Below are positions 6,552 through 63,400 of a stretch of DNA of 64,000 bases, in pieces. A model generated the notes under the pieces. It was not told the DNA's origin and searched no databases. It was given only the letters and a program-made list of their open reading frames with translations. Where the stretch lies: positions 62,001 through 126,000 of the IMG/VR virus record IMGVR_UViG_3300017917_002108; one strand, given 5' to 3'. Source of the stretch: a virus. The stretch's first letter is position 1. Every line of letters starts with the position of its first letter. Both the position numbers and the translations under genes were made by a program.

Positions 6552-6572
6552 AAGGCCGCTAGACGCGGCCTT
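6552..6572 (+). terminator. Hairpin terminator after the lysis operon
   Basis: An 8-bp perfect stem (AAGGCCGC/GCGGCCTT) with a 5-nt loop is followed by TTTGTCTTC. It lies in the gap between the secreted protein gene and dnaJ, as expected for a rho-independent terminator, though the T-tract is short and interrupted. Confidence 0.75.
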
Positions 6573-6582
6573 TGTCTTCATG

Positions 6583-6595
6583 TATAATATAAATT
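6583..6595 (+). promoter_or_regulatory. TATAAT / TATAAATT box directly before dnaJ
   Basis: A perfect TATAAT (6583-6588) overlaps TATAAATT (6588-6595), ending at the base before the dnaJ ATG (6596). If the first is a -10 box, transcription would begin at or next to the start codon, giving a leaderless mRNA. No good -35 hexamer is visible, and no Shine-Dalgarno precedes the ATG. Confidence 0.45.
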
Positions 6596-7438
6596 ATGGA
6601 TTATTATAATATTTTAGGTGTAGCTAAAAACGCTAGTCAGGACGAAATTAAATCAGCCTATCGGAAGATGGCCATGAAGTTTCATCCCGATAGAGGTGGG
6701 GACGAAAAGAAATTCAAAGAAATAGAAGAAGCTTACCGAACACTTAGCGATCCTCAGAAAAAACAGATATTTGATTTAGGCGGTGATCCGAATAATCAAA
6801 ACGGCGGATTTTACAATCAAGGACCGTTCGAGTTCCATTTTGGAACTAACAACATGAATGATGTATTTGGAAACTTTGGTTTTGGAGGACCGTTTGGATT
6901 TGGTGCTAGGCAAAGAAATAAATCGATAAACATCGTAGTAGAACTGACCTTGGAAGAAGTTCTTGTCGGCAAGGATATAGATGCCGAGATATCTATCCCT
7001 GGCGGGAAAAAGAAAATCATTAACATCAGTGTTCCGCCCGGAATAGAGGAAGGACAACAGATTAGATATCAAGGTATGGGAGATAATAGTATCCCTCATA
7101 TTCAACCCGGAGACCTGTTAGTCAATATCCGTATACTACCGCATGCAGAATTTAGGCGAGAAGGATCTAATATTATTTTAGATAAAACAGTGTCTGTATG
7201 GGACGCTATACTCGGCTGTTCTTTGACTATCAAAACTTTAGATCATAAGACTTTACAAATTTCTGTGCCTGCTGGTACACAACCAGAGACTGTACTCAGC
7301 TGTAAAAATGAAGGATTACCATTAATGAGAAATCAAAGACGAGGTAATCTTCTAATTAAAATTAAAGTGGAAATTCCTAAAAATATCGGTCATCAGATGA
7401 AAGCCGCTGTAGAAAAACTAAAGAATAATGATGTATGA
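6596..7438 (+). CDS. dnaJ: DnaJ/CbpA-like co-chaperone (class B J-protein)
   Basis: Residues 1-65 are a J domain with the HPD motif at 30-32, which stimulates Hsp70 ATPase. Residues about 68-108 are Gly/Phe-rich (NVFGNFGFGG type). The rest is the two-barrel substrate-binding C-terminal domain. The Cys-rich zinc finger of DnaJ proper is absent, so it is CbpA-like. At 280 residues it is slightly shorter than CbpA. It would recruit host DnaK, since no phage Hsp70 is in the window. It is followed by a tiny ORF and a ClpA-type unfoldase, making a chaperone-unfoldase operon. Confidence 0.93.
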   Translation: MDYYNILGVAKNASQDEIKSAYRKMAMKFHPDRGGDEKKFKEIEEAYRTLSDPQKKQIFDLGGDPNNQNGGFYNQGPFEFHFGTNNMNDVFGNFGFGGPFGFGARQRNKSINIVVELTLEEVLVGKDIDAEISIPGGKKKIINISVPPGIEEGQQIRYQGMGDNSIPHIQPGDLLVNIRILPHAEFRREGSNIILDKTVSVWDAILGCSLTIKTLDHKTLQISVPAGTQPETVLSCKNEGLPLMRNQRRGNLLIKIKVEIPKNIGHQMKAAVEKLKNNDV

Positions 7439-7523
7439 TCACTTAGATGGTATATGTTTAGTTGACAAAGTGAGTCAGCTGGAATTAAACTTAGATATAA
7501 AGAAACTTAGGAAAAAGAAATAA
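7431..7523 (+). CDS. Short ORF (30 aa) bridging dnaJ and clpA
   Basis: ATG at 7431 opens a 30-codon frame ending TAA at 7521-7523. It begins MYDHLDGI and ends with a basic LRKKK tail. It overlaps the dnaJ stop by eight bases, and its stop overlaps the clpA ATG as TAATG. So three genes are tiled without a gap, the usual pattern of translational coupling. With no length support, the evidence is only the perfect tiling. It could be a small adaptor-like peptide or a coupling ORF. Confidence 0.5.
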   Translation: MYDHLDGICLVDKVSQLELNLDIKKLRKKK

Positions 7524-9862
7524 TGATAGAACCAAGCTCAAATCTGCAACAAATATTTGATAATGCAGTTGAACATGCGAAAAAATTAAATCACGAATAT
7601 ATCACAATTGAGCATTTAGTATATGCTATAGTCTGTGACGGTCCCTCATTTCAAATCATAGAAAATTATGGAGCAGATGCAAATTTTATCAAGACTAATT
7701 TAGAACATTATATCAGAAATAATTTGAACGACATCAAAGCTTCTGATCCTAATCAGAAGCCAAAAAAGACCAGTTCAGTTGAAAGAGTTCTAAATCGTTG
7801 TTTTACGCAGGTATTGTTCAGTGGTAGGCAACGTATGGAAGTTGCTGATATCATTATCAGTATTCTAAGTGAAAAAAATAGCTTTGGTTTTTACTTCTTA
7901 AGTAAAGGTGGTCTGACCAAAGAAAAATTTATCCAGTATTTCCAAGAAAATCTAGAGATAGAAGAAGAAGAACCGTCTACTCAAATTGCGACTAATTCAC
8001 AGATGGAAAGAATCATTAATCAATTTTGTACCAATCTCAGCCTACTAGCCAAACAACGTAAGATTGATCCAGTCATTGGCAGAGATGAAGAATTAGAAAA
8101 AATTCAATTGATTCTGGCACGTAGAAATAAATGTAATGTTCTAATGGTAGGAGATCCTGGCGTGGGCAAAACTGCCATTGCAGAAGGCCTGGCTCGTAAG
8201 ATCTTTGAAAAGAAAGTTCCTAAGTTCATCCAAGATCATCAAGTCTATACATTAGATATCAGCTCTTTACTGGCAGGTTCTAAGTATCGAGGTGACTTCG
8301 AAGAGAGGATCAAAGCAGTACTAGCATCGTTAGAGAAAAAAGGCAAGATCATATTGTTCATCGATGAAGCACATATGATGCAAGGAGCAGGTGCAGCTAA
8401 TCAAAGCTCAAACGATCTAGCTAACATTCTTAAGCCTATACTGACCAAAGGTATCATAAAACTTATCGCATCAACCACATGGGAAGAATATCGCAAACAT
8501 TTCGAAAGCGATAGAGCATTAATGCGTAGATTCCAACGTGTAACGGTCGATGAACCTAGCCAAGAGATGACTGTTAAAATTATCAAAGGTATTAGAAAAT
8601 ATTATGAAAAACATCATAATGTTAAAATTACCGATGCAGGAATTGATCAAGCAGTAAAGTTATCAATCAAATATATGGCTGATAAAAAATTGCCGGATAA
8701 AGCCATTGATATCATAGACTGTGCCGCGGCTAGATATAAACTCAAAGATGATCCCACCGAAGAAGGCATCGAACAGTTAGTTGACGTTGAACAGGTCACA
8801 TATGAACTCAGCAAAATGATCAACATGCCATTGGAAACTGTGGCTCAGAAAGAAAGTAAAAATCTAACCGGTCTTGAAAAAGGTATGAAGGCTGCTGTAT
8901 ACGGACAAAATGAAGCTGTTGATACCTTGCTTGATAAGATTTTTGTCGCCCAAGCAGGCATGAAGCAACCAAATAAACCCATTGGGTCTTTCCTATTCCT
9001 TGGACCCACAGGCACAGGCAAGACCGAAACTGCTAAGACATTGGCAGATAAGATGGGCATGCAATTGGTAAGATTTGACATGGGAGAATATCAAGAGAAG
9101 CATAGCGTGGCAAGGCTAATCGGTGCGCCTCCCGGATATGTGGGCTATGAAGATAACGCAGGTCAGCTGATTACCAAACTTCAAGAACATCCTAACAGTA
9201 TTATTTTACTAGATGAGATTGAAAAAGCTCATCCAGATGTTAGTAATATTTTATTAGCATTTATGGATAATGGATTTATCACAGGCAGCAATGGAAAACA
9301 GGCAGATGGCAGGAACTGTATCCTCATTATGACATCTAATCTAGGAGCCAGAGACAACGAAAATAATGCCATTGGATTTGGTGATCTAGATAAAGACGGT
9401 GAAGATGACAAAGCGGTCAAGAAATATTTTGCTCCTGAATTCCGCAATCGTTTAGATGCAGTAATTAAATTTGATAAGCTAGGACTAGATGTAGTTATAC
9501 AAATTGTCAATAAATTTATATCAGAATTAAATTCTCAGCTGAAAGATAAAAATATTGAAATCGTATTGACCCATAAGGCTCAAAATTGGTTAGCAGAAAA
9601 AGGCTACGATAAAAAAATGGGTGCAAGACCGTTATCTCGATTGATAGATAATAAGATCAAATCTCCGTTGAGCCGCAGAGTATTGTTTGGAGATCTATCT
9701 AACGGTGGTAAGGTAACTGTTGATATTGAAAATGACGAACCGATATTTGCCGTCGAAGACTATATCAAAACATTGACCAGAGCTGCCAAAAGAAAACTAG
9801 GCATAGTTGATGAAATCCTAGAAGCTAAGACCGATGATATCAAAGAAGAAAATAACCAATAG
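7523..9862 (+). CDS. clpA: ClpA-type AAA+ unfoldase with ClpP-docking IGF loop
   Basis: The 779-residue protein has an N-terminal Clp_N-type domain to about residue 150. D1 carries Walker A GDPGVGKT (210-217) and Walker B ILFIDEAH. There is no long ClpB middle domain. D2 carries Walker A GPTGTGKT (494-501), Walker B ILLDEIEKAH, and a C-terminal domain ending in an acidic tail. IGF at residues 617-619, just before the FAPEFRNRLD motif, matches in position and sequence the loop by which ClpA and ClpX bind ClpP. So the protein should be able to dock on host ClpP. Length fits ClpA (about 758) rather than ClpB. No ClpP or ClpS is encoded in the window. Confidence 0.93.
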   Translation: MIEPSSNLQQIFDNAVEHAKKLNHEYITIEHLVYAIVCDGPSFQIIENYGADANFIKTNLEHYIRNNLNDIKASDPNQKPKKTSSVERVLNRCFTQVLFSGRQRMEVADIIISILSEKNSFGFYFLSKGGLTKEKFIQYFQENLEIEEEEPSTQIATNSQMERIINQFCTNLSLLAKQRKIDPVIGRDEELEKIQLILARRNKCNVLMVGDPGVGKTAIAEGLARKIFEKKVPKFIQDHQVYTLDISSLLAGSKYRGDFEERIKAVLASLEKKGKIILFIDEAHMMQGAGAANQSSNDLANILKPILTKGIIKLIASTTWEEYRKHFESDRALMRRFQRVTVDEPSQEMTVKIIKGIRKYYEKHHNVKITDAGIDQAVKLSIKYMADKKLPDKAIDIIDCAAARYKLKDDPTEEGIEQLVDVEQVTYELSKMINMPLETVAQKESKNLTGLEKGMKAAVYGQNEAVDTLLDKIFVAQAGMKQPNKPIGSFLFLGPTGTGKTETAKTLADKMGMQLVRFDMGEYQEKHSVARLIGAPPGYVGYEDNAGQLITKLQEHPNSIILLDEIEKAHPDVSNILLAFMDNGFITGSNGKQADGRNCILIMTSNLGARDNENNAIGFGDLDKDGEDDKAVKKYFAPEFRNRLDAVIKFDKLGLDVVIQIVNKFISELNSQLKDKNIEIVLTHKAQNWLAEKGYDKKMGARPLSRLIDNKIKSPLSRRVLFGDLSNGGKVTVDIENDEPIFAVEDYIKTLTRAAKRKLGIVDEILEAKTDDIKEENNQ

Positions 9863-10514
9863 AAAGTTTTACGGTAAATGGTTATATAAAATTACCTTAA
9901 AAATCAATGGTGTGTCTATTATAAGGACGAATTCCTTAGAGGACACCATTGATTTTATGATGAATCCAGAGACACATATATTAAAAAACTATTCTTACAA
10001 CAGACGTTCCTTAGGAAGATCAGAAGAAATCATCAATCTCTGTAGATTCCTACTGCCTTTAGGGCTAGAAGATTACACCAAAAGATTAGAATCCAATCTC
10101 ATAGACATTTACACCAACGACGAAACCATTTATAAAAATGCCTGCTCGTTGTTTTATGATCAAATAGTACATCACTTCGAACCCGAACAAAGTTCAGTTA
10201 ATCTATTATCCAAATCCAATTTCATTGTAGTTAAGAAACTACCGCACGACAAGTTTAGATATAAGGTTTTTCTAACTCCTCATAGGCTCAAACACGATAA
10301 AGAAAAAAAACAACAATTTTTATCTTGGCTAGACACACAAAATGACCGGATAAGAATATCAGGAACAGTAAAAGATTGGTTTATTAGAACTGACTGGAAC
10401 TGGGATCGCAGATATGTGCTCGTCACAGACGAAGCGACTCTGCTGATGATGAAGATGGCTAATCCTGATGCAGTGGGCAAAGTATATGAGCACGTGGTGT
10501 TGATAAATACTTGA
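9834..10514 (+). CDS. Conserved phage hypothetical protein
   Basis: This 226-residue soluble protein starts 29 bases inside clpA and has an N-terminal FYGKWLYKITLKI segment. The central region is helical, and a C-terminal half has several Arg/Trp-rich stretches (DWFIRTDWNWDRRYVLV). No catalytic motif is recognised. The overlap places it in the dnaJ-clpA operon, and the end overlaps the next ATG (TGATG). I cannot name a function. Confidence 0.7.
   Translation: MISKKKITNRKFYGKWLYKITLKINGVSIIRTNSLEDTIDFMMNPETHILKNYSYNRRSLGRSEEIINLCRFLLPLGLEDYTKRLESNLIDIYTNDETIYKNACSLFYDQIVHHFEPEQSSVNLLSKSNFIVVKKLPHDKFRYKVFLTPHRLKHDKEKKQQFLSWLDTQNDRIRISGTVKDWFIRTDWNWDRRYVLVTDEATLLMMKMANPDAVGKVYEHVVLINT
10502..10509 (+). 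promoter_or_regulatory. GATAAATA box abutting the next start codon
   Basis: GATAAATA ends only four bases before the ATG at 10514. A T4-type late start site would fall at about the A of that ATG, giving a leaderless transcript. It lies inside the previous coding region, so chance is possible. It is kept because the following gene looks structural and other boxes here have the same core. Confidence 0.35.
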
Positions 10515-10870
10515 TGTCCAACGAAATTCGAACACTACTAGCAAATATCGGTCTAGAATCAGCAGATTCTACATTTGTTTACGGCAATAAAAGTCCAGGA
10601 GCAGGATATCACAAAAGCAATAATTCAATACATACGGTAATTTATCAGGTTTCGGATTTCGTAGGTACTATAAAAATACAGGCTACACTAGCTCTGGATC
10701 CGGCAGATTCGGATTGGTTTGATGTAGATGATACCACGATTGGAATAGGATCAGACAGTTCAGCGTGGACCACTAGTAATACCTTCAATTTTTCAGGTAA
10801 TTTTGTATGGATTCGCGCTGCATATAACATACAAAACGGTTCTATTACCTCGATTACTTATCTAGTCTAA
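10514..10870 (+). CDS. Small beta-rich protein, possible virion component
   Basis: The start ATG at 10514 overlaps the previous stop (TGATG). The 118-residue product is Ser/Thr/Asp-rich with alternating beta-strand patterns (TVIYQVSDF, TIKIQATLAL, FVWIRAAYNI). It lacks charged clusters and cysteines, like small phage decoration or fibre domains. It lies between a late-promoter-like box and a second one at 10883, at the start of the putative structural block. The virion assignment is inference from composition and place. Confidence 0.6.
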   Translation: MSNEIRTLLANIGLESADSTFVYGNKSPGAGYHKSNNSIHTVIYQVSDFVGTIKIQATLALDPADSDWFDVDDTTIGIGSDSSAWTTSNTFNFSGNFVWIRAAYNIQNGSITSITYLV

Positions 10871-37094: not shown

Positions 37095-38714
37095 GTGGAC
37101 AAAAAAATCAAATTTTACGATAAGAATTTTCATAGTATCAGAGAGACGATTAATGAAATAAGCGATTCGTTCTGTGCTGCAAAATGGCTTCAGGTCAGCT
37201 TACATCTTACCAACGGTAAAACTCATAGTTGCTATCACCCCCCTACACATGATATTGACAGGCAGGATCTAGAAATAGATCCTGCTTCTTTGCATAATAC
37301 CAAACAAAAATTCATAGAAAGAAAAATGATGCTGGAAGGTCAAAGACCTCCGGGCTGCGAATATTGTTGGAAGATAGAAGATTCAGGACATATCAGTGAT
37401 AGGTATTATCGCAGCAGCGAACATTGGGCGGTTGATAAAATAGAATATATAAAAAATCTGCCCTATGATTTTTCTATCAATCCCACATATGTTGAAGTCA
37501 ATTTTAATCAGACCTGCAATTTTAAATGTTGTTATTGTAGTCCTCATCTAAGCAGCACATGGCAAGAAGAGGTCGAAGAATATGGTCCTTATAAGATAAA
37601 TTCTTCATTACATAATCACATAGCTACGTTACAAAATGCAGGACTCATGCCTACAGGATCAGCAACAAAAGATAATCCGTATTTAGAATCTTTCTGGAAA
37701 TGGTGGCCTGATTTATATCCCAATCTAAAAGTATTTCGCATGACCGGTGGAGAACCGTTAATGGATGCAAATACTTTTAAAGTTTTAGATTATGTTATAG
37801 AGCATCCTAATAAAGAATTAGAATTAAGTGTTACATCTAACCTTTGCCCGCCAAAAGAACTTTTTGAAAAATTCTTGACAAAAGTTAAACAATTAGATTG
37901 TGTAGACCATCGGGTAGAATGTTATGTTCCAGATCCTAAAAACGGAAAGCCTTGGCAAGAATGGCCGCACTATATTATTGGTGCAAAGAACAAAGAATAT
38001 CACAGAAGCAATTTACCTTCCATAGAACGAAATGATATACCAGAGACCTTTGAAGGCATAGGTCATGCAAAAGAAAACGGAAGTTTTACATATCTATATT
38101 CTTATAAAGATTTTGCCTGCAAACATTTTACATTATATGTAAGCCTAGATAGTGTTGATTCTCAAGCAGAATATATCAGAAATGGTTTAAATTTTTCTAC
38201 CCTAGAATATAACATAGATAAATTTCTTTCAGAAACAGAGAATACTAGTATTAGTTTTATCAACACATTTAATCGATTAAGTATTCCCGGATTACGAAAA
38301 TATTTAGAATTGATGTTAAAGTTACGTAGAAAATTTTCTGGATCTGCTCAGAGATTTAAAGGAACCAAGAGATTCCAGCGTATATGGTTTGATATTCCTT
38401 TATTACGTAAACCTGAATGGTTAAGTGTATTGAATTGCGGTCCAGAAGAAATAACAGAATTAAAGAATATTCTTATCTGGATGGAAGAAAACAAGAGCAG
38501 TAAATATGAGAAAAATTTACAAGGTTTTAGACCCTACGAAATTGAGAAGCTGAAAAGAAACATAGACGTTATAGAAAATAACAAATTTGATGAGATAACT
38601 AAATTAAATAACAACAAAAATTTTAAAGAATTTTTCACCGAACACGATAAAAGAAGAAATACTAATTTTGAAATCAGTTTTCCAGAATTAGCAGAATGGT
38701 ATAGGAATTTATAA
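37095..38714 (+). CDS. Radical SAM protein 1 (N-terminal twitch type)
   Basis: GTG 37095 is the only plausible start before the conserved N-terminus. Of the 539 residues, the first 110 form a twitch-type N-domain with SCYHPPTHDID, GCEYCWKIED and HISDRYY. The radical SAM core has CNFKCCYC (CxxxCxxC) in VNFNQTCNFKC, then FRMTGGEPLMDANT for SAM binding and an LYVSLDSVD strand. A long insertion occurs around residues 280-345, including DHRVECYVPDPKNG. The protein ends with DKRRNTNFEISFPELAEWY. Such twitch rSAM proteins are annotated in phages without known substrate. Confidence 0.88.
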   Translation: MDKKIKFYDKNFHSIRETINEISDSFCAAKWLQVSLHLTNGKTHSCYHPPTHDIDRQDLEIDPASLHNTKQKFIERKMMLEGQRPPGCEYCWKIEDSGHISDRYYRSSEHWAVDKIEYIKNLPYDFSINPTYVEVNFNQTCNFKCCYCSPHLSSTWQEEVEEYGPYKINSSLHNHIATLQNAGLMPTGSATKDNPYLESFWKWWPDLYPNLKVFRMTGGEPLMDANTFKVLDYVIEHPNKELELSVTSNLCPPKELFEKFLTKVKQLDCVDHRVECYVPDPKNGKPWQEWPHYIIGAKNKEYHRSNLPSIERNDIPETFEGIGHAKENGSFTYLYSYKDFACKHFTLYVSLDSVDSQAEYIRNGLNFSTLEYNIDKFLSETENTSISFINTFNRLSIPGLRKYLELMLKLRRKFSGSAQRFKGTKRFQRIWFDIPLLRKPEWLSVLNCGPEEITELKNILIWMEENKSSKYEKNLQGFRPYEIEKLKRNIDVIENNKFDEITKLNNNKNFKEFFTEHDKRRNTNFEISFPELAEWYRNL

Positions 38715-40105
38715 TGGGTACAAAATACATAGAGATTATTAAAGACACCAGAGACCAACTAAACACCGTAGGCAAAGGATTTTGTTTGGCTAAATGGAAT
38801 ATGGAAACTCTGTATCTTCATATGGGGGATAACCATAGTTGCTACCATCCCAGACCTCATAAAATTGATAAATCTCTACTGGAATCTAATCCTAGTGCCC
38901 TACACAATACTCCGTGGAAGAAAGAGCAAAGAAAACTTATGTTAGAGGGCGGAAGGCCAGAAGAATGTTATTACTGTTGGAACATCGAAGATCTACCCGG
39001 AGATCATATCAGCGACAGAATGAAACACAGCTCAAATCATATTCAAACATTAAAACAGATAGTAGATGCTGGATGGGAAGCAGATTACAATCCAAGGCAT
39101 CTAGAAGTTAGTTTTGGTAACGGATGTAATTTTAGATGCGGATATTGCTGTCCTCAGGCCAGCAGTTCATGGATGGAAGAGATTAAAAAACACGGTAACT
39201 ATGATATAACTTATAATCAATACGGTATTGATTTTTTAGGATATAGTGAATTTTATAATAAAGATGATCCGAATCCTTATGTAGATGCGTTCTGGAAATG
39301 GTGGCCTGATCTACAAAAAGATCTCAAGGTTCTTAGGATAACAGGCGGAGAACCGTTAATGAATCCTAATACATTTAATCTCTTAGAGATGTTAGAAAAA
39401 GAACCTGCTCCGCATCTGCAGATACATGTGAATAGTAATCTAGGTGTGACTCACCGGTTGGTTGTGAAATTAGTAGATCATGTTAAAAGATTGCTTGAAA
39501 AGAAAGCGATAAAAGATTTTAAATTGTATACAAGCATAGACACATGGGGTCCTCAGGCAGAGTATATCAGAACAAATTTAGATATCAAACTGTGGGAACA
39601 GAACCTAAGCTATTACTTAGATAATCTTCCTCAACAAGATATAAGTTTTATGATCACGTTCAACGTACTTACGGTGACTAACTTTAGAAATTTATTAGAA
39701 AAAATATTAGAACTTAGAACAAAATTTAAAGGTTCTCCCTGGCATCAAAGAGTACAATTCGATACACCATATTTAAAAGAGCCCCCTCATTGGATGATTA
39801 ATATACTTCCAGAGTCATTCAACACCTATATGGATCAGCACCTCGAGTTCATCAAAGACAATCTTATTAGAGACCCGGGAGACATCGGATTTAACGAAAT
39901 AGAATACGAAGTGTTCAAAAGAGTTAGAGACTATATGAAAGAAAATCCAGTTGATCCTAAAAAAATCTCTCAAGGACGTAGAGATTTCTATGTGTTCTTT
40001 AATGAAACTGATAAACGCAACGGTACAAAGTTTCACGAAGTATTTCCAGAGTACATAGAATTCATGGAACTTTGTAAACAAGAATATTTAAATTATGACA
40101 AATAA
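38714..40105 (+). CDS. Radical SAM protein 2 (paralogue of protein 1)
   Basis: The start overlaps the stop of protein 1 (TAATG). The 463-residue product has the same layout: SCYHPRPHKID and ECYYCWNIED in the N-domain, the core motif CNFRCGYC in FGNGCNFRC, LRITGGEPLMNPNT, YTSIDTWGPQAEYIRTN, and a C-terminal ETDKRNGTKFHEVFPEY. Shared FWKWWPDL and DKRxxTxF segments show recent common origin with protein 1, without its central insertion. No SPASM-type Cys cluster is obvious beyond the N-terminal cysteines. Confidence 0.9.
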   Translation: MGTKYIEIIKDTRDQLNTVGKGFCLAKWNMETLYLHMGDNHSCYHPRPHKIDKSLLESNPSALHNTPWKKEQRKLMLEGGRPEECYYCWNIEDLPGDHISDRMKHSSNHIQTLKQIVDAGWEADYNPRHLEVSFGNGCNFRCGYCCPQASSSWMEEIKKHGNYDITYNQYGIDFLGYSEFYNKDDPNPYVDAFWKWWPDLQKDLKVLRITGGEPLMNPNTFNLLEMLEKEPAPHLQIHVNSNLGVTHRLVVKLVDHVKRLLEKKAIKDFKLYTSIDTWGPQAEYIRTNLDIKLWEQNLSYYLDNLPQQDISFMITFNVLTVTNFRNLLEKILELRTKFKGSPWHQRVQFDTPYLKEPPHWMINILPESFNTYMDQHLEFIKDNLIRDPGDIGFNEIEYEVFKRVRDYMKENPVDPKKISQGRRDFYVFFNETDKRNGTKFHEVFPEYIEFMELCKQEYLNYDK

Positions 40106-41264
40106 AACGCCTATATACTGTGTAAATGCATATCATACTCTAAGTATTAATTCGGTTGGCACCTGTAAAAGTTGCTGTATGGCAGACGGTGGAACTGAAT
40201 GGGGTCAAAGAGTATCCGATACACCGTTAGATGTTATATGGGAAGATCCTTATTTCTTGGATATAAGGAAGTCTCTTGCAGAAGGAATAAGACATCCTGC
40301 ATGTAAGAAATGTTGGGAAGAAGAGGATGCTGGAAGACATAGTAAACGTATAAGAGATAACGATAAAAAATTTGGATTTACGCCCTCTGATAAGATCAAG
40401 ATAGTTGAACTCAATCTAGGAAATACCTGTAATATACAATGTCGTACATGCCACCCTTACAGCAGTAGCAAATGGCTCAAAGAATATTATGTGACAAATA
40501 ATATAGATATTACTTACAAAAAATTTCTAACCAATGCAAAGGTCTATAACGACTGCTGGGAAGACGATAGCCTGGTATGGTCAGAACTAAACAAGATCGG
40601 TAAAGATATAGAAAGAATAGAATTTTATGGCGGTGAACCTTTCCTTTTAAAACAACAATGGAAATTTTTACAAAAATGTGTAGATGAAGGTTGGTCAAAA
40701 AATCAAATGATACATTACAATACCAACGGTACTACATGGCACGAAGAGAATATTAAATTATTCGAACATTTCAAATATGTGGATGTAGGTTTTAGTATAG
40801 ATGGTGTGGGCGAACAATTTGAATTTATGCGATATCTGGCCAAATGGGATGTTGTTTTAGAGAATTTACAAAAAGCTAAAAAATTTCAAGAAGGCAAATC
40901 AAATGTTTGGTTTGACATCTGTCATACTATCAGTTCATTGAATGTTTACTACATACCAGAATTCATAGAATATTTTGGTAAAGATTGGCGTATATATCTT
41001 AATCTTGTTCATTGGCCTGACTATTATGCCATCACCATCTTTCCAGATGCTATCAAAGAATTAATTATAAAAAAATTAGATTCAATTAGTGAAATAGATC
41101 ATAATCAAATTGTTGGAATTAAAAATCTTGTGGCCAACGGAAAATTTGATCCGAAAATCTGGGAAGAATTCAAAAACAGAATCACAATCCATGACGAATT
41201 TAGAGGACAAGATTATTATAAAACATTTCCTGAATTTGGATCGATTATAAGGAATCACGGATGA
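40095..41264 (+). CDS. Radical SAM protein 3 (N-terminal twitch type)
   Basis: Overlaps protein 2 by 11 bases. The 389-residue product has GTCKSCCMADGG and CKKCWEEEDAGR in the N-domain, CNIQCRTC in NLGNTCNIQC as the cluster motif, and RIEFYGGEPFLLKQ as the SAM-binding motif, with VGFSIDGVGEQFEFMR following. The C-terminus has HDEFRGQDYYKTFPEFG, a diverged form of the tail in proteins 1 and 2. Same family, more distant. Confidence 0.9.
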   Translation: MTNKTPIYCVNAYHTLSINSVGTCKSCCMADGGTEWGQRVSDTPLDVIWEDPYFLDIRKSLAEGIRHPACKKCWEEEDAGRHSKRIRDNDKKFGFTPSDKIKIVELNLGNTCNIQCRTCHPYSSSKWLKEYYVTNNIDITYKKFLTNAKVYNDCWEDDSLVWSELNKIGKDIERIEFYGGEPFLLKQQWKFLQKCVDEGWSKNQMIHYNTNGTTWHEENIKLFEHFKYVDVGFSIDGVGEQFEFMRYLAKWDVVLENLQKAKKFQEGKSNVWFDICHTISSLNVYYIPEFIEYFGKDWRIYLNLVHWPDYYAITIFPDAIKELIIKKLDSISEIDHNQIVGIKNLVANGKFDPKIWEEFKNRITIHDEFRGQDYYKTFPEFGSIIRNHG

Positions 41265-42499
41265 AATTTTGGACTACAGATAATGTCATACAAGTACATG
41301 TAGAATTATCAACATTTTGTAATGCCGCATGTCCTAAGTGTCCTAGGTATATTGATGGAACGATGGTTCTACGTCCAGGATTAGAACTTGAACAAATTAC
41401 CTTAGAAAAATTTAAAAAATATTTTAATGAAACATTCATAAGGCAGACCACTCAATGGTTATTCTGTGGTACACACGGAGATCCAATGATGGCCAAGGAC
41501 GCCATAGACATATTTGAATATTTGTACTCTATTAATAATGATCTTCAAATCAGAATCAATACCAATGGCGGGATGCGCAATGAGAAAGACTGGAGACGAT
41601 TAGGAGAGCTTTCTAAGAAAGTTAATAATAGATTTACCATAACTTTCAGCATTGATGGTCTAGAAGATACAAATCATTTATATCGCAGAAATGTTGATTG
41701 GGCCACGCTAATTAGAAATGTTAAATCTTATATAAATGCTGGCGGTAGGGCCACTTGGGATTTTTTAGTTTTTAAGCATAATCAACATCAGATCGAAGAA
41801 GCAAAACAATTAGCAGCAGATTGGGGCTTTTCGGAGTTCGCTCCTAAAAGAGCATTAGGTTTTGAGTATGACGGAAATATAAGAGATGTGCCTGTATGGG
41901 ACGAAAATGGCAATTACACCCATACATTAGAAGCATCTACAAATCCGGAATTTACCAATCATACACCTGATCAAATTAAATCTGTGGTCAAAATGCCCAC
42001 AGAAAGTCTAGTTACATTTTATAAAAATAATAGAGATATACTTAAAGAAAAACATATCAACGAAATGAAACAATGGGATGGATTAAATTGGAACGACCAA
42101 ATATACGATTATTCCAAGTATAACGAAAAAGTTATAAATTGCAAATCAAACATTGTTTCTATGCATAAAGGAAAAGTTATCTACGGTTCAGAGATTTTCT
42201 TAACGGCAGGCGGTATTGTTGGTCCATGCTGTTATATAGGTACTCAGTTCGATGTTACCTATAGAACTGTAGAAGTACATCAATTACAAAAAAAGATATA
42301 TGAGTACGGAGTTGATAATTTTAATCTAAACAAAAAAACTCTTCACGATATCCTCGAAGAAGGTCATCTAAACAATTTGTATGCTTCGTCGTGGGATAAA
42401 CAAAATAATCAAAGAATATTATATTGTTCGCATACTTGCGGTGAAAATAGTCATATCGATCGAATCTGGAACGAAGAAGCTCGTGCTAAGTTCGATTAG
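41261..42499 (+). CDS. Radical SAM protein 4 (SPASM-like C-terminus)
   Basis: Overlaps protein 3 by four bases (ATGA). The 412-residue product lacks the N-terminal twitch region: the cluster motif CNAACPKC is at about residues 19-26. WLFCGTHGDPMMAKD replaces the GGEP motif (GTHGDP type), and TFSIDGLEDTNHLYR follows. The C-terminal part has GGIVGPCCYIGTQ and ILYCSHTCGENSHID, cysteines that could bind an auxiliary cluster as in SPASM enzymes. SPASM enzymes often modify peptides or proteins. The substrate is unknown. Confidence 0.88.
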   Translation: MKFWTTDNVIQVHVELSTFCNAACPKCPRYIDGTMVLRPGLELEQITLEKFKKYFNETFIRQTTQWLFCGTHGDPMMAKDAIDIFEYLYSINNDLQIRINTNGGMRNEKDWRRLGELSKKVNNRFTITFSIDGLEDTNHLYRRNVDWATLIRNVKSYINAGGRATWDFLVFKHNQHQIEEAKQLAADWGFSEFAPKRALGFEYDGNIRDVPVWDENGNYTHTLEASTNPEFTNHTPDQIKSVVKMPTESLVTFYKNNRDILKEKHINEMKQWDGLNWNDQIYDYSKYNEKVINCKSNIVSMHKGKVIYGSEIFLTAGGIVGPCCYIGTQFDVTYRTVEVHQLQKKIYEYGVDNFNLNKKTLHDILEEGHLNNLYASSWDKQNNQRILYCSHTCGENSHIDRIWNEEARAKFD

Positions 42500-60400: not shown

Positions 60401-63400
60401 ATATCCTGTAGCAGTAAAAGTTTGTGTATTTGTAAAACTATTATATAGACCCTGTTTCGCTATTCTATCAAATTTTATCCCTAGATCAAAACTTCTTATC
60501 TTAGTGTTACCTAATATAGCAACAGCATTGGCAATATCTGTATTGGTTCCGTTACCCCCGACAAGAGATATTGACGGCGTTTTTGTATAACCGTATCCTT
60601 GATTGTCTACTCTGATTCCAGATACTCGTCCACTAGATATAAAAGCTGTAGCAGAAGCTCCGATACCGTTACCTTCTATAAGAACTATAGGAGGAGTTTT
60701 ATATCCCGAACCTGGATTGTTTATCTGGATATCGACGATTGAGAAACCGTTGTTCTCTGCCCAGGATTTCCAAGGATATTCATCAAATCTATTATAAGTT
60801 GAACCAACTGGCAATATTTTTCCGTCTCTAACTGACCAAGCGGCAGGAAGATCAAAATCTGTTAGGGCCGAACCATAATTGTTTTTATCAGTATATCTTG
60901 ATGTATATTCTCTGACCGTGGTCCTATATGGTTTGACTTCGTCTATGTAATTTCTGAATTGATCTAAATTATCATTTTTATAATTAGGACGTTGATCTAA
61001 ATCGCCAACATTATGTATTGCATTTAAAAAGCTGGTCTTAAATGCCCAATCTATATATTGTTGTTCTGAGTAAGCATATTTTATCGAACTAAAGAATAAT
61101 TTATTCCATTCTACACTTAGATCATCAACAAAAATGTCTTCTTTTGCTGCTTTGAGAATCATTCGTAATTCTTTGATAGGTTGTAGATCATATAATACAG
61201 AATCATAAGATCCTATATTGTCATATCCTAAAGACGCTGTAACCGCATTGTATAAAGATTCTTTAATACTGATAGTTCCATTTTGTCTACCTATCAAATT
61301 ATAGTTGTTTAGAATAGACCCCATGCCGGTTTCAGTTCTTTCTAAGACTGCCCATCCGCCGCTGCCAAATTCTTTGATTCTTAATAGAGATCCTTGTGTT
61401 ATAGTAATTGATGGTTCTTGGTACAGATAATTAATTTCTTTGAATATTTTAGATTTTTCATCAAATCCGGTTGCCCACCAATCAGTATATTCCCAATACA
61501 AGCTGGTATTATAACCTTGAGATTTTCTTCTGTAGAATATTTTTCTCAATTGGTCCCAACCGTATAAGCTCCAGAAATTCTTATCTGTAGAATCTGTTCT
61601 AACTAACACTGAGAAAGGTCTTATTTTCACTATAGCAGTAGTGTATTTTCTACCTTTTGTCAAGACTGTACAAGTTGCCACACGACCTTGGGTATCTAAA
61701 GTCACGGCGGCCTTTGCGCCAGTGCCGGTGCCTTCAATTTCTATAAACGGCACTGTTCTATATCCGAATCCAGAATCAATAATATCTATAGTGTCAATTT
61801 GACCATTGATGATATTAGCTCTGAATTCTGCTTTTCTAATCTTAGCTGTCCCTACCTGTTCTAGATCGATATATTCATCTACAGCAATATCATATTCGTT
61901 GAGCTCTTCGCTAGGCAACGGATCTACACTATTAAGATTTTCAAAATTAATTAAATCAGTAAAGGGTCTGGTTTTTAATATACTGTTAATGTTATCAATT
62001 ACAATCTTAAGTGCTTTGTTTCTATTAACAAACATAGTTTGTCTAGGTCTAAAACCAAGTCCATATCTTTGGTTACTTGACAAACTGAAATCTGGTACGG
62101 TATTACCTGCCTGATCAAAACCCACAAGACTGTCTAACCACTTTCTCTCAAGGGTATCAGCAGGCAACGAATCCGCAACTCCTTCGGTCAATAATTGATA
62201 TTCTCTGTGTACAGGATTTAGATTTAATTTGGCTAAATTGTATTCGATATTAATTCTTGCGGTATCGCTGTTTAGAATTGTTTTGAAATTATAGAAAGCG
62301 AACTTATCAGAATCTAGAATTGCTACAAAAGGAATCCCTGTTCCGATAGGATTATTAATATAGGAATTTATAGATGCAGTAGATAATCTTCTATTCGCAG
62401 CATCGGGCAATGTAGTTTTATTTTTCACCCAATAATAATATAATGTTCCTGTAGGATTTCCTGTTGAAGGATTGACCAGCACCTTGGTGTTATATACTGT
62501 GTCATCGGCATTTTTTGGTTGCCCAGAAATTCCTTCGGCGAGTCCTTCAACAGTATCAGCTAGAATACTCCATTCTGATGGTAACAGAGGAGTCTCTACC
62601 CATTCATAAACATCAATGCTGGAACCCGTTGCCTGATTATTCCAGTTTCCTATTCTATAGCTTAGATCGTCTTGTTCATAATTAATAAACTTTACGGTAC
62701 TTAGATTCCACCATACTTCACCTACTTGATCCTCAAACCATGCTTGAGATTCATCTACCGTAACTGTATCATCACCTAGCATATAAATGGCAGGATCATA
62801 GATTGTTTTGTATTTTATATCTTGGTCGGCAATCGACAAAGTTTTTAATTTATAATGATCTACAATATCTAAATCAGCTAATTTAATATTTTTCTTATCA
62901 TCATAAATTTCTATATTCTTGATAGAATCTATATCAACCTGCTGTGCTTGTTGTCTAATAACAGCAAGACTGTTTACTGCTGAATCTTTTTTAAATAGTC
63001 GAACCATCCCAACTTCTATATTATTAACTTTATATGTTGGGGAACCAACTACGATAGTAGAGCTTGTACAATCGACCGAATTACCAAAAGATTCGAAAGA
63101 AACAAAATCAGCTTCTAGTTTTTCGGCTAACAAGTAACCTTGATCTTTTCTTTCAAACACGTACACCTGTCCAGGATATCCCAATTTAGTACTGTAGGTA
63201 GTGCGTCTACTATCAAATGTACTGGTGCCAGAATCGAATGTTGTTAATAAATCATAACCAGAATTTTTTGCTCCGACAACTATTCTTTCAGTGGCCGCAC
63301 TAATCGACACGCTAGATCCAAAATACTCATTGGTATAATTTTCAAAACTCTCAAGTTTCTGTACTAGTCTGAACTGGGATTCGGTAGAACTATTTTTCCT

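Follow-up and report, generated by a model that had tools for sequence, protein, structure and literature searches.

ClpA and ClpX dock onto the peptidase ClpP through loops bearing an IGL or IGF tripeptide; ssrA-tagged proteins are degraded by ClpAP, and N-degron substrates are delivered by ClpS. Phage-encoded ClpA, ClpP, ClpS and DnaJ have each been published individually (PMC6102473, PMC7824862), as have DnaK with DnaJ in moraphages (PMC12619734) and peptide deformylase (PDF, gene def) with transfer-messenger RNA (tmRNA) in huge phages (PMC7162821). We found no account in the openly licensed literature of a phage dnaJ-def-clpA cassette, of repeated def loss or of a promoter embedded in def, and nothing relevant there on phage ClpA/ClpP biochemistry or on jumbo phages with both tmRNA and DnaK. 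Here we describe such a cassette in a 64,000-nucleotide stretch of viral DNA (hereafter, the window), positions 62001–126000 of the 146,604-base virus record IMGVR_UViG_3300017917_002108 (G000), in which dnaJ, a 31-codon open reading frame (ORF) and clpA tile positions 6596–9862. Our favoured reading, which we consider probable, is that dnaJ-(def)-clpA would contribute an unfoldase and a J-protein to quality-control machinery encoded by the phage and made up of ClpAP-ClpS, DnaK-DnaJ, deformylase and tmRNA, and that the 31-codon ORF is a def stump acting as a control element for clpA.

Judged by its sequence, the window’s ClpA is a complete, conserved unfoldase. Its Pfam matches are AAA_2, AAA_lid_9, ClpB_D2-small and Clp_N; the Walker A and B motifs are intact in each of the two ATPase modules, which also carry the pore loops KYRG and GYVG, the second domain (D2) carries the arginine-finger motif EFRNR, and the Walker, pore and finger motifs are all kept in relatives. 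The ratio of nonsynonymous to synonymous substitution rates (dN/dS) is 0.015, with dS saturated, and among solved structures E. coli ClpA matches best (1KSF, E=1e-200). The best family is TIGR02639 (ClpA), at 888.1 bits, a score below the NCBIfam equivalog cut-off of 993.15, so we describe a divergent phage ClpA-type protein and do not file it as a cellular ClpA orthologue. A ClpB/Hsp104-type disaggregase pairing with DnaJ/DnaK was considered and ruled out: the protein is 779 residues long, has no middle domain and possesses the docking loop that E. coli ClpB is without, and the ClpB profile matches it in two separate stretches only.

The original prediction, which had identified a ClpA-type AAA+ protein in a gap-free arrangement (the overlaps are 11 and 1 nucleotides, nt) and IGF at residues 617–619 as its ClpP-binding loop, is borne out on all these points; the tripeptide shares both its residue numbers and its alignment column with I617-G618-L619 of E. 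coli ClpA. A mutation-tolerant IGF in relatives had been named as the observation that would count against this loop. The patterns with which we located ClpA relatives leave the docking loop out, and yet IGF occurs in 73 of 73 distinct ClpAs of this clade, including those of the isolates Atu_ph07, Phosso and PA5oct at ~40% identity, whereas several loop positions flanking it are merely 41–60% conserved. The tripeptide in RaK2-type phages is IGV, IGM, LGM or VGF, and phages with a loop other than IGF tend also to have changes at the ClpP pocket positions corresponding to F82, M92 and L114; PA5oct keeps IGF though some of these pocket residues differ. This co-divergence of loop and pocket, drawn from two lineages, is suggestive only. 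One large genome, LR756501 (735 kb), encodes a ClpA-like protein that has no loop, and gave no ClpP match.

The gene preceding clpA encodes a J-protein with HPD at residues 30–32 and a J domain (PF00226) matched at 3.4e-24. DnaJ profiles skip the zinc-finger segment and otherwise fit bacterial DnaJ, so that the window’s protein is class B-like and not class A; its dN/dS is 0.045 against locus L007, with high dS. At all 47 distinct IMG/VR loci that extend far enough upstream, clpA directly follows dnaJ, a pairing far above chance.

In most IMG/VR relatives, ~490 bases separate dnaJ from clpA and encode an intact deformylase (~164 residues) that carries GIGLAANQ, EGCLSYP and QHExDHLxG; of 68 distinct loci, 46 have a gene with all three motifs in this position and 22 do not. 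The window’s ORF matches residues 136–164 of the 164-residue deformylase of L007 (86% over 29 residues, E=4.6e-20). It lacks catalytic motifs 1 and 2, together with the HE of HExxH, so that only YDHLDG onwards is left, and comparison of the junctions places the start codon, which the stump shares with def, across the end of dnaJ. The ORF, originally predicted as a 30-codon operon member, is thus present, at 31 codons, but it is evidently a def remnant, neither enzyme nor independent gene. The ClpA tree needs 12 changes of def state, 8 of them forced by well-supported branches; the window, whose sister is L007, and locus L107 both differ in this respect from def-bearing sisters. From this we infer that def has been lost repeatedly, bearing in mind that a count of changes does not separate gain from loss; the stumps in the window and L107 give direct support for loss, and those in L008, L074 and L076 weaker support. 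Among isolates, Phosso has dnaJ-PDF-clpA; Atu_ph07 and PA5oct have dnaJ-clpA without PDF. We did not find def elsewhere in the 146.6-kb record, and the missing part of the genome may differ.

The surviving end of def appears to have a second role. Of 46 distinct intact def genes, 45 contain a TTGACA-18-TACAAT-like element ~60 nt ahead of clpA, and it also occurs in stumps. Because it must encode protein too, it can be tested by synonymous recoding: at least 10 of the 12 consensus bases are present in 45 of the 46 observed genes, against a mean of 8.4 and a maximum of 17 of 46 in 200 recodings, and of 38 representatives sharing less than 85% identity, 37 fit as well. Seven of the eight most synonymously biased def columns fall within the last 24 codons (hypergeometric 4.5e-6, with columns taken as independent and the tree not modelled); they include the codons that make GTT-GAC (for TTGACA), TTA (for the -10) and AGG, the last being the most synonymously constrained column of the gene. 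At loci that lack def and have a gap of less than ~20 nt (for example L027, L038, L045 and L062), dnaJ abuts clpA and no such promoter remains. The stump is therefore best read, mainly, as a retained control element with a putative sigma70-like clpA promoter and ribosome site, and the 3′ end of def would have been kept because these signals sit inside it. Since dnaJ and clpA each have a promoter-like element of their own (Table 1), the arrangement is not a simple single-promoter operon, as had been proposed, so far as these predicted elements go.

The partners of the unfoldase come into view in larger relatives. No ClpP, ClpS, DnaK or PDF was found in the 146.6-kb record, in which a sub-threshold HSP70 match falls within clpA itself. 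This record is collinear with only ~61.8–207 kb of a 353-kb relative, G030 (ClpA identity, 81.6%), and is on that ground a fragment of a jumbo phage. G030 encodes a ClpP that is 63% identical to E. coli ClpP, with an intact catalytic triad and a largely kept docking pocket, and also another ClpP-like protein; its dnaK, hsp20 and clpS are consecutive genes. These clpP/clpS/dnaK-type genes, at 34.5–37.3, 56.5 and 341.8 kb, lie outside the interval shared with the window’s record, and the absence of ClpP from the latter is attributable to its fragment boundaries. Hsp20 and the tmRNA of G030 likewise fall beyond the shared interval, the partner genes as a whole being at 24.9–57 and 341.8 kb. ClpP was present in eight of the eight complete isolate jumbo-phage genomes with ClpA that were tested: it accompanies ClpS in Atu_ph07, Phosso and PA5oct and is also found in RaK2, 121Q, GAP32, CBB and XaC1, as well as in the partial Vibrio phage 2.275.O. 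The triad is intact in all eight phage ClpPs aligned. DnaK and ClpS occur together in G030 and in a further relative, G019; Atu_ph07, Phosso and PA5oct have no DnaK.

Permuted, betaproteobacterial-type tmRNAs also occur in G030 and G019 (RF04321, 120.5 and 143.7 bits), at L123:4880-5318 (24.9 kb in G030) and L152:6573-7023 (G019), whose tags end VALAA and FALAA, respectively; the tag ORFs are unusually long, at 28–31 codons. This tmRNA type hints at a betaproteobacterial host. Three side observations concern G000 and these relatives: a cspD-like gene adjoins the tmRNAs, genes for heme oxygenase and a ferredoxin-dependent bilin reductase lie directly downstream of dnaK-hsp20-clpS (L123:17575-18796; 37.6–38.8 kb in G030), and a homologue of translation initiation factor IF-1 adjoins a tRNA cluster (G000:4669-4881, G030:66599-66811).

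We hypothesize that the phage’s ClpA translocates substrates into a ClpP that the phage itself encodes, from a gene outside the fragment, that phage ClpS delivers N-degron substrates, and that clients are held or refolded by DnaJ acting with DnaK, which two large relatives encode and which would otherwise come from the host. Together with the deformylase and a phage tmRNA whose tag ends LAA, these parts could form a phage-owned line of nascent-protein quality control that would supplement host proteostasis in infection. A fuller version, to which we give somewhat less than an even chance, is that the clade possesses an essentially complete line of its own (tmRNA tagging, deformylase, DnaK-DnaJ-Hsp20 and ClpA-ClpP-ClpS), in which def doubles as the clpA promoter and its repeated loss leaves promoter stumps behind. 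Several points weigh against the quality-control proposal. The ClpP, ClpS and DnaK that we ascribe to the window’s phage come from its relatives only; G019 (280 kb) has DnaK, ClpS and clpA and no detected ClpP, in a fragment with clpA near one end; and SmpB was not found in 11 genomes, so that a phage tmRNA would need SmpB from the host. Furthermore, the co-divergence of loop and pocket is drawn from eight phages in two lineages and may reflect shared ancestry, and the embedded-promoter test leaves some relatedness among the def genes.

The main rival, and the strongest because the cassette abuts structural genes, is that ClpA and DnaJ serve virion assembly: their chief clients would be phage structural proteins, to be folded, remodelled or, as mis-assembled head or tail parts, cleared, with host proteins and general quality control outside their main role. 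We regard this as unlikely, but several points favour it. The 119-residue protein two genes downstream of clpA, a homologue of a PA5oct structural protein detected by mass spectrometry (the two share phrog_13657), is present in 116 of 117 loci and in Atu_ph07, Phosso and PA5oct; tail genes follow dnaJ-clpA in PA5oct; the clpA of RaK2-type phages stands between tail-sheath and large virion genes; and assembly roles are proposed in PMC7824862 and PMC6102473. Yet the cassette travels with a deformylase, which is unexpected for an assembly factor, and the clpA promoter-like element is sigma70-like and presumably early. Neighbourhood alone, moreover, says nothing of substrate choice, and a ClpAP machine could do both. 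Between clpA and the 119-residue gene is one for a 226-residue protein that occurs in 70 of 73 distinct relatives, mostly overlapping the clpA stop; it has no match in Pfam or PHROG, and we consider it a candidate ClpA adaptor.

The original prediction had inferred another scheme: the IGF of phage ClpA would let it capture and redirect the host’s ClpP, with DnaJ drawing in the host’s DnaK. The record’s lack of ClpP, ClpS and DnaK would favour this, and IGF, the ClpX type and near ClpA’s IGL, should suit the pocket of a standard bacterial ClpP, so that docking to host ClpP is possible. The statement that no phage ClpP is seen holds for the 146.6-kb record; it does not extend to the phage, given that G030’s ClpP gene lies beyond the shared interval, and with a fragment boundary to explain the gap the scheme loses most of its basis. 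It is further opposed by ClpP in all complete isolate relatives tested, by ClpS in near-complete or complete ones and DnaK in some, and by the joint change of loop and phage ClpP pocket in RaK2-type phages. We now think redirection of host ClpP and DnaK improbable, the host’s DnaK nevertheless being the likely partner of DnaJ in phages such as the three isolates that lack their own.

That the 31-codon ORF encodes a functional peptide, for example a deformylase inhibitor or a ClpA adaptor, and is a true operon member might be argued from its frame, open from the def start codon to the natural stop, and from just 4 amino-acid changes over 29 codons relative to L007. We rate this as very improbable: the L107 stump, at the same position, is frameshifted with its promoter kept, and stumps of other lineages keep promoter and ribosome site and lose the peptide sequence. 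In addition, the stump’s dS is 0.32 (over 16 synonymous sites only) versus 1.7–2.8 in the flanking genes, which would point to constraint on the DNA rather than on the peptide. Least probable of all is that the stump, seen in a single metagenomic contig, is an assembly error, since independent contigs have similar stumps (L107, L008, L074 and L076) and the isolates Atu_ph07 and PA5oct are also without def.

The start of dnaJ has an unusual layout of its own. The -35 of its promoter-like element lies in the loop of a terminator-like hairpin (Table 1), and the hairpin region reads CTTGAC in 10 of 16 readable relatives, which places a -35 in the loop there too. Since the -10 stops 7 nt short of the ATG, a leaderless dnaJ mRNA is predicted. 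Sigma70-like sites in G000, G030 and G019 fall into classes by the distance from -10 to ATG (25 at 4–9 nt, 48 at 20–35 nt and 3 at 10–19 nt), and a control with scrambled -35 gave 0 sites at 4–9 nt. We infer that the 4–9 nt class, to which dnaJ belongs, is leaderless.

Table 1. Features of the dnaJ-(def)-clpA locus (positions in the window; promoter, ribosome-site and terminator entries are predictions)
Feature	Position	Strand	Description
Terminator-like palindromic hairpin	6552..6572		AAGGCCGC-TAGAC-GCGGCCTT; closes the upstream unit; dnaJ -35 in its loop
dnaJ promoter-like element	6560..6588	+	TAGACG-17-TATAAT; TTGACG-17-TATAAT in several relatives
dnaJ	6596..7438	+	280-aa J-protein: J domain, G/F-rich linker, DnaJ_C
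31-codon ORF, def remnant	7428..7523	+	def start codon, last 29 codons and stop
clpA promoter-like element	7462..7491	+	Inside def remnant: TTGACA (7462-7467), 18 nt, TAAACT (7486-7491)
clpA Shine-Dalgarno-like AGGAAA	7509..7514	+	Inside def remnant
clpA	7523..9862	+	779-aa ClpA-type double AAA+ unfoldase: N domain, D1, D2, small C-terminal domain
Codons of ClpP-docking tripeptide I617-G618-F619	9371..9379	+	Invariant in 73/73 distinct relatives
226-aa protein	9834..10514	+	Overlaps clpA 3′ end; candidate member of unit
119-aa protein	10511..10870	+	Homologue of MS-detected PA5oct structural protein (ESI-MS/MS annotation)
aa, amino acids; MS, mass spectrometry; ESI-MS/MS, electrospray ionization tandem MS.

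Elsewhere, the window holds DNA polymerase and tail-fibre-type genes, and proteins at 38714-42499 match radical SAM phage families. A scan of genome_contigs for a bacterial source returned 32 loci only: the nearest (55–57%) resemble phage contigs binned into metagenome-assembled genomes and keep dnaJ-clpA, and the remaining whole-length matches are at ~41–43%.

These observations caution that a phage can seem to lack ClpP because its genome is known only in fragments, and they lead to a hypothesis open to test, namely that certain jumbo phages possess full ClpAP-ClpS and DnaK-DnaJ machinery of their own and do not hijack the host’s. The link to deformylase was unexpected: an enzyme that strips the N-terminal formyl group is here associated with an N-end-rule protease and a co-chaperone; with PDF and tmRNA both present, the set would point to nascent-chain quality control. 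The embedded promoter shows concretely how a common annotation error, the reading of a promoter-bearing stump as a tiny gene, could arise, and def provides a clean evolutionary series in which at least 8 changes are inferred.

Compared with the ClpA-ClpP-ClpS system of E. coli (PDB 1KSF, 6W1Z), the window’s ClpA has the same domain order, Walker and pore motifs, a tripeptide at 617–619 and no ClpB middle domain, and relatives of its phage also encode ClpP and ClpS; it differs in being ~44% identical, in having IGF and not IGL, in its different and variable C-terminal tail, and in a gene that sits beside dnaJ and def instead of clpS. The RaK2-type phages (RaK2, 121Q, GAP32, CBB and XaC1) likewise unite ClpA with a ClpP gene in one genome, but there neither dnaJ nor def adjoins clpA, and both the loop (IGV, IGM, LGM or VGF) and the ClpP pocket are altered. 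Agrobacterium phage Atu_ph07 (gp292 ClpA, gp293 DnaJ, gp676 ClpP and gp708 ClpS; PMC6102473) has adjacent dnaJ-clpA, IGF and its own ClpP and ClpS; its genome is without deformylase and DnaK, and the available portion of its description presents the Clp proteins as Clp family members and gives no account of a cassette, def or embedded promoter. The huge phages with translation-related sets (PDF, tmRNA, SmpB and IF1; PMC7162821) resemble this group in carrying deformylase, tmRNA and IF1; the main text of that study (Al-Shayeb et al. 2020) is without Clp or chaperones and does not tie deformylase to a DnaJ-ClpA cassette. Sinorhizobium phage Phosso (PV764938) differs in a ClpA that is 42% identical, in a def without the embedded TTGACA/-10 promoter and in a cassette known from deposited annotation only, but it has the identical gene order, dnaJ-peptide deformylase-clpA, together with its own ClpP and ClpS.

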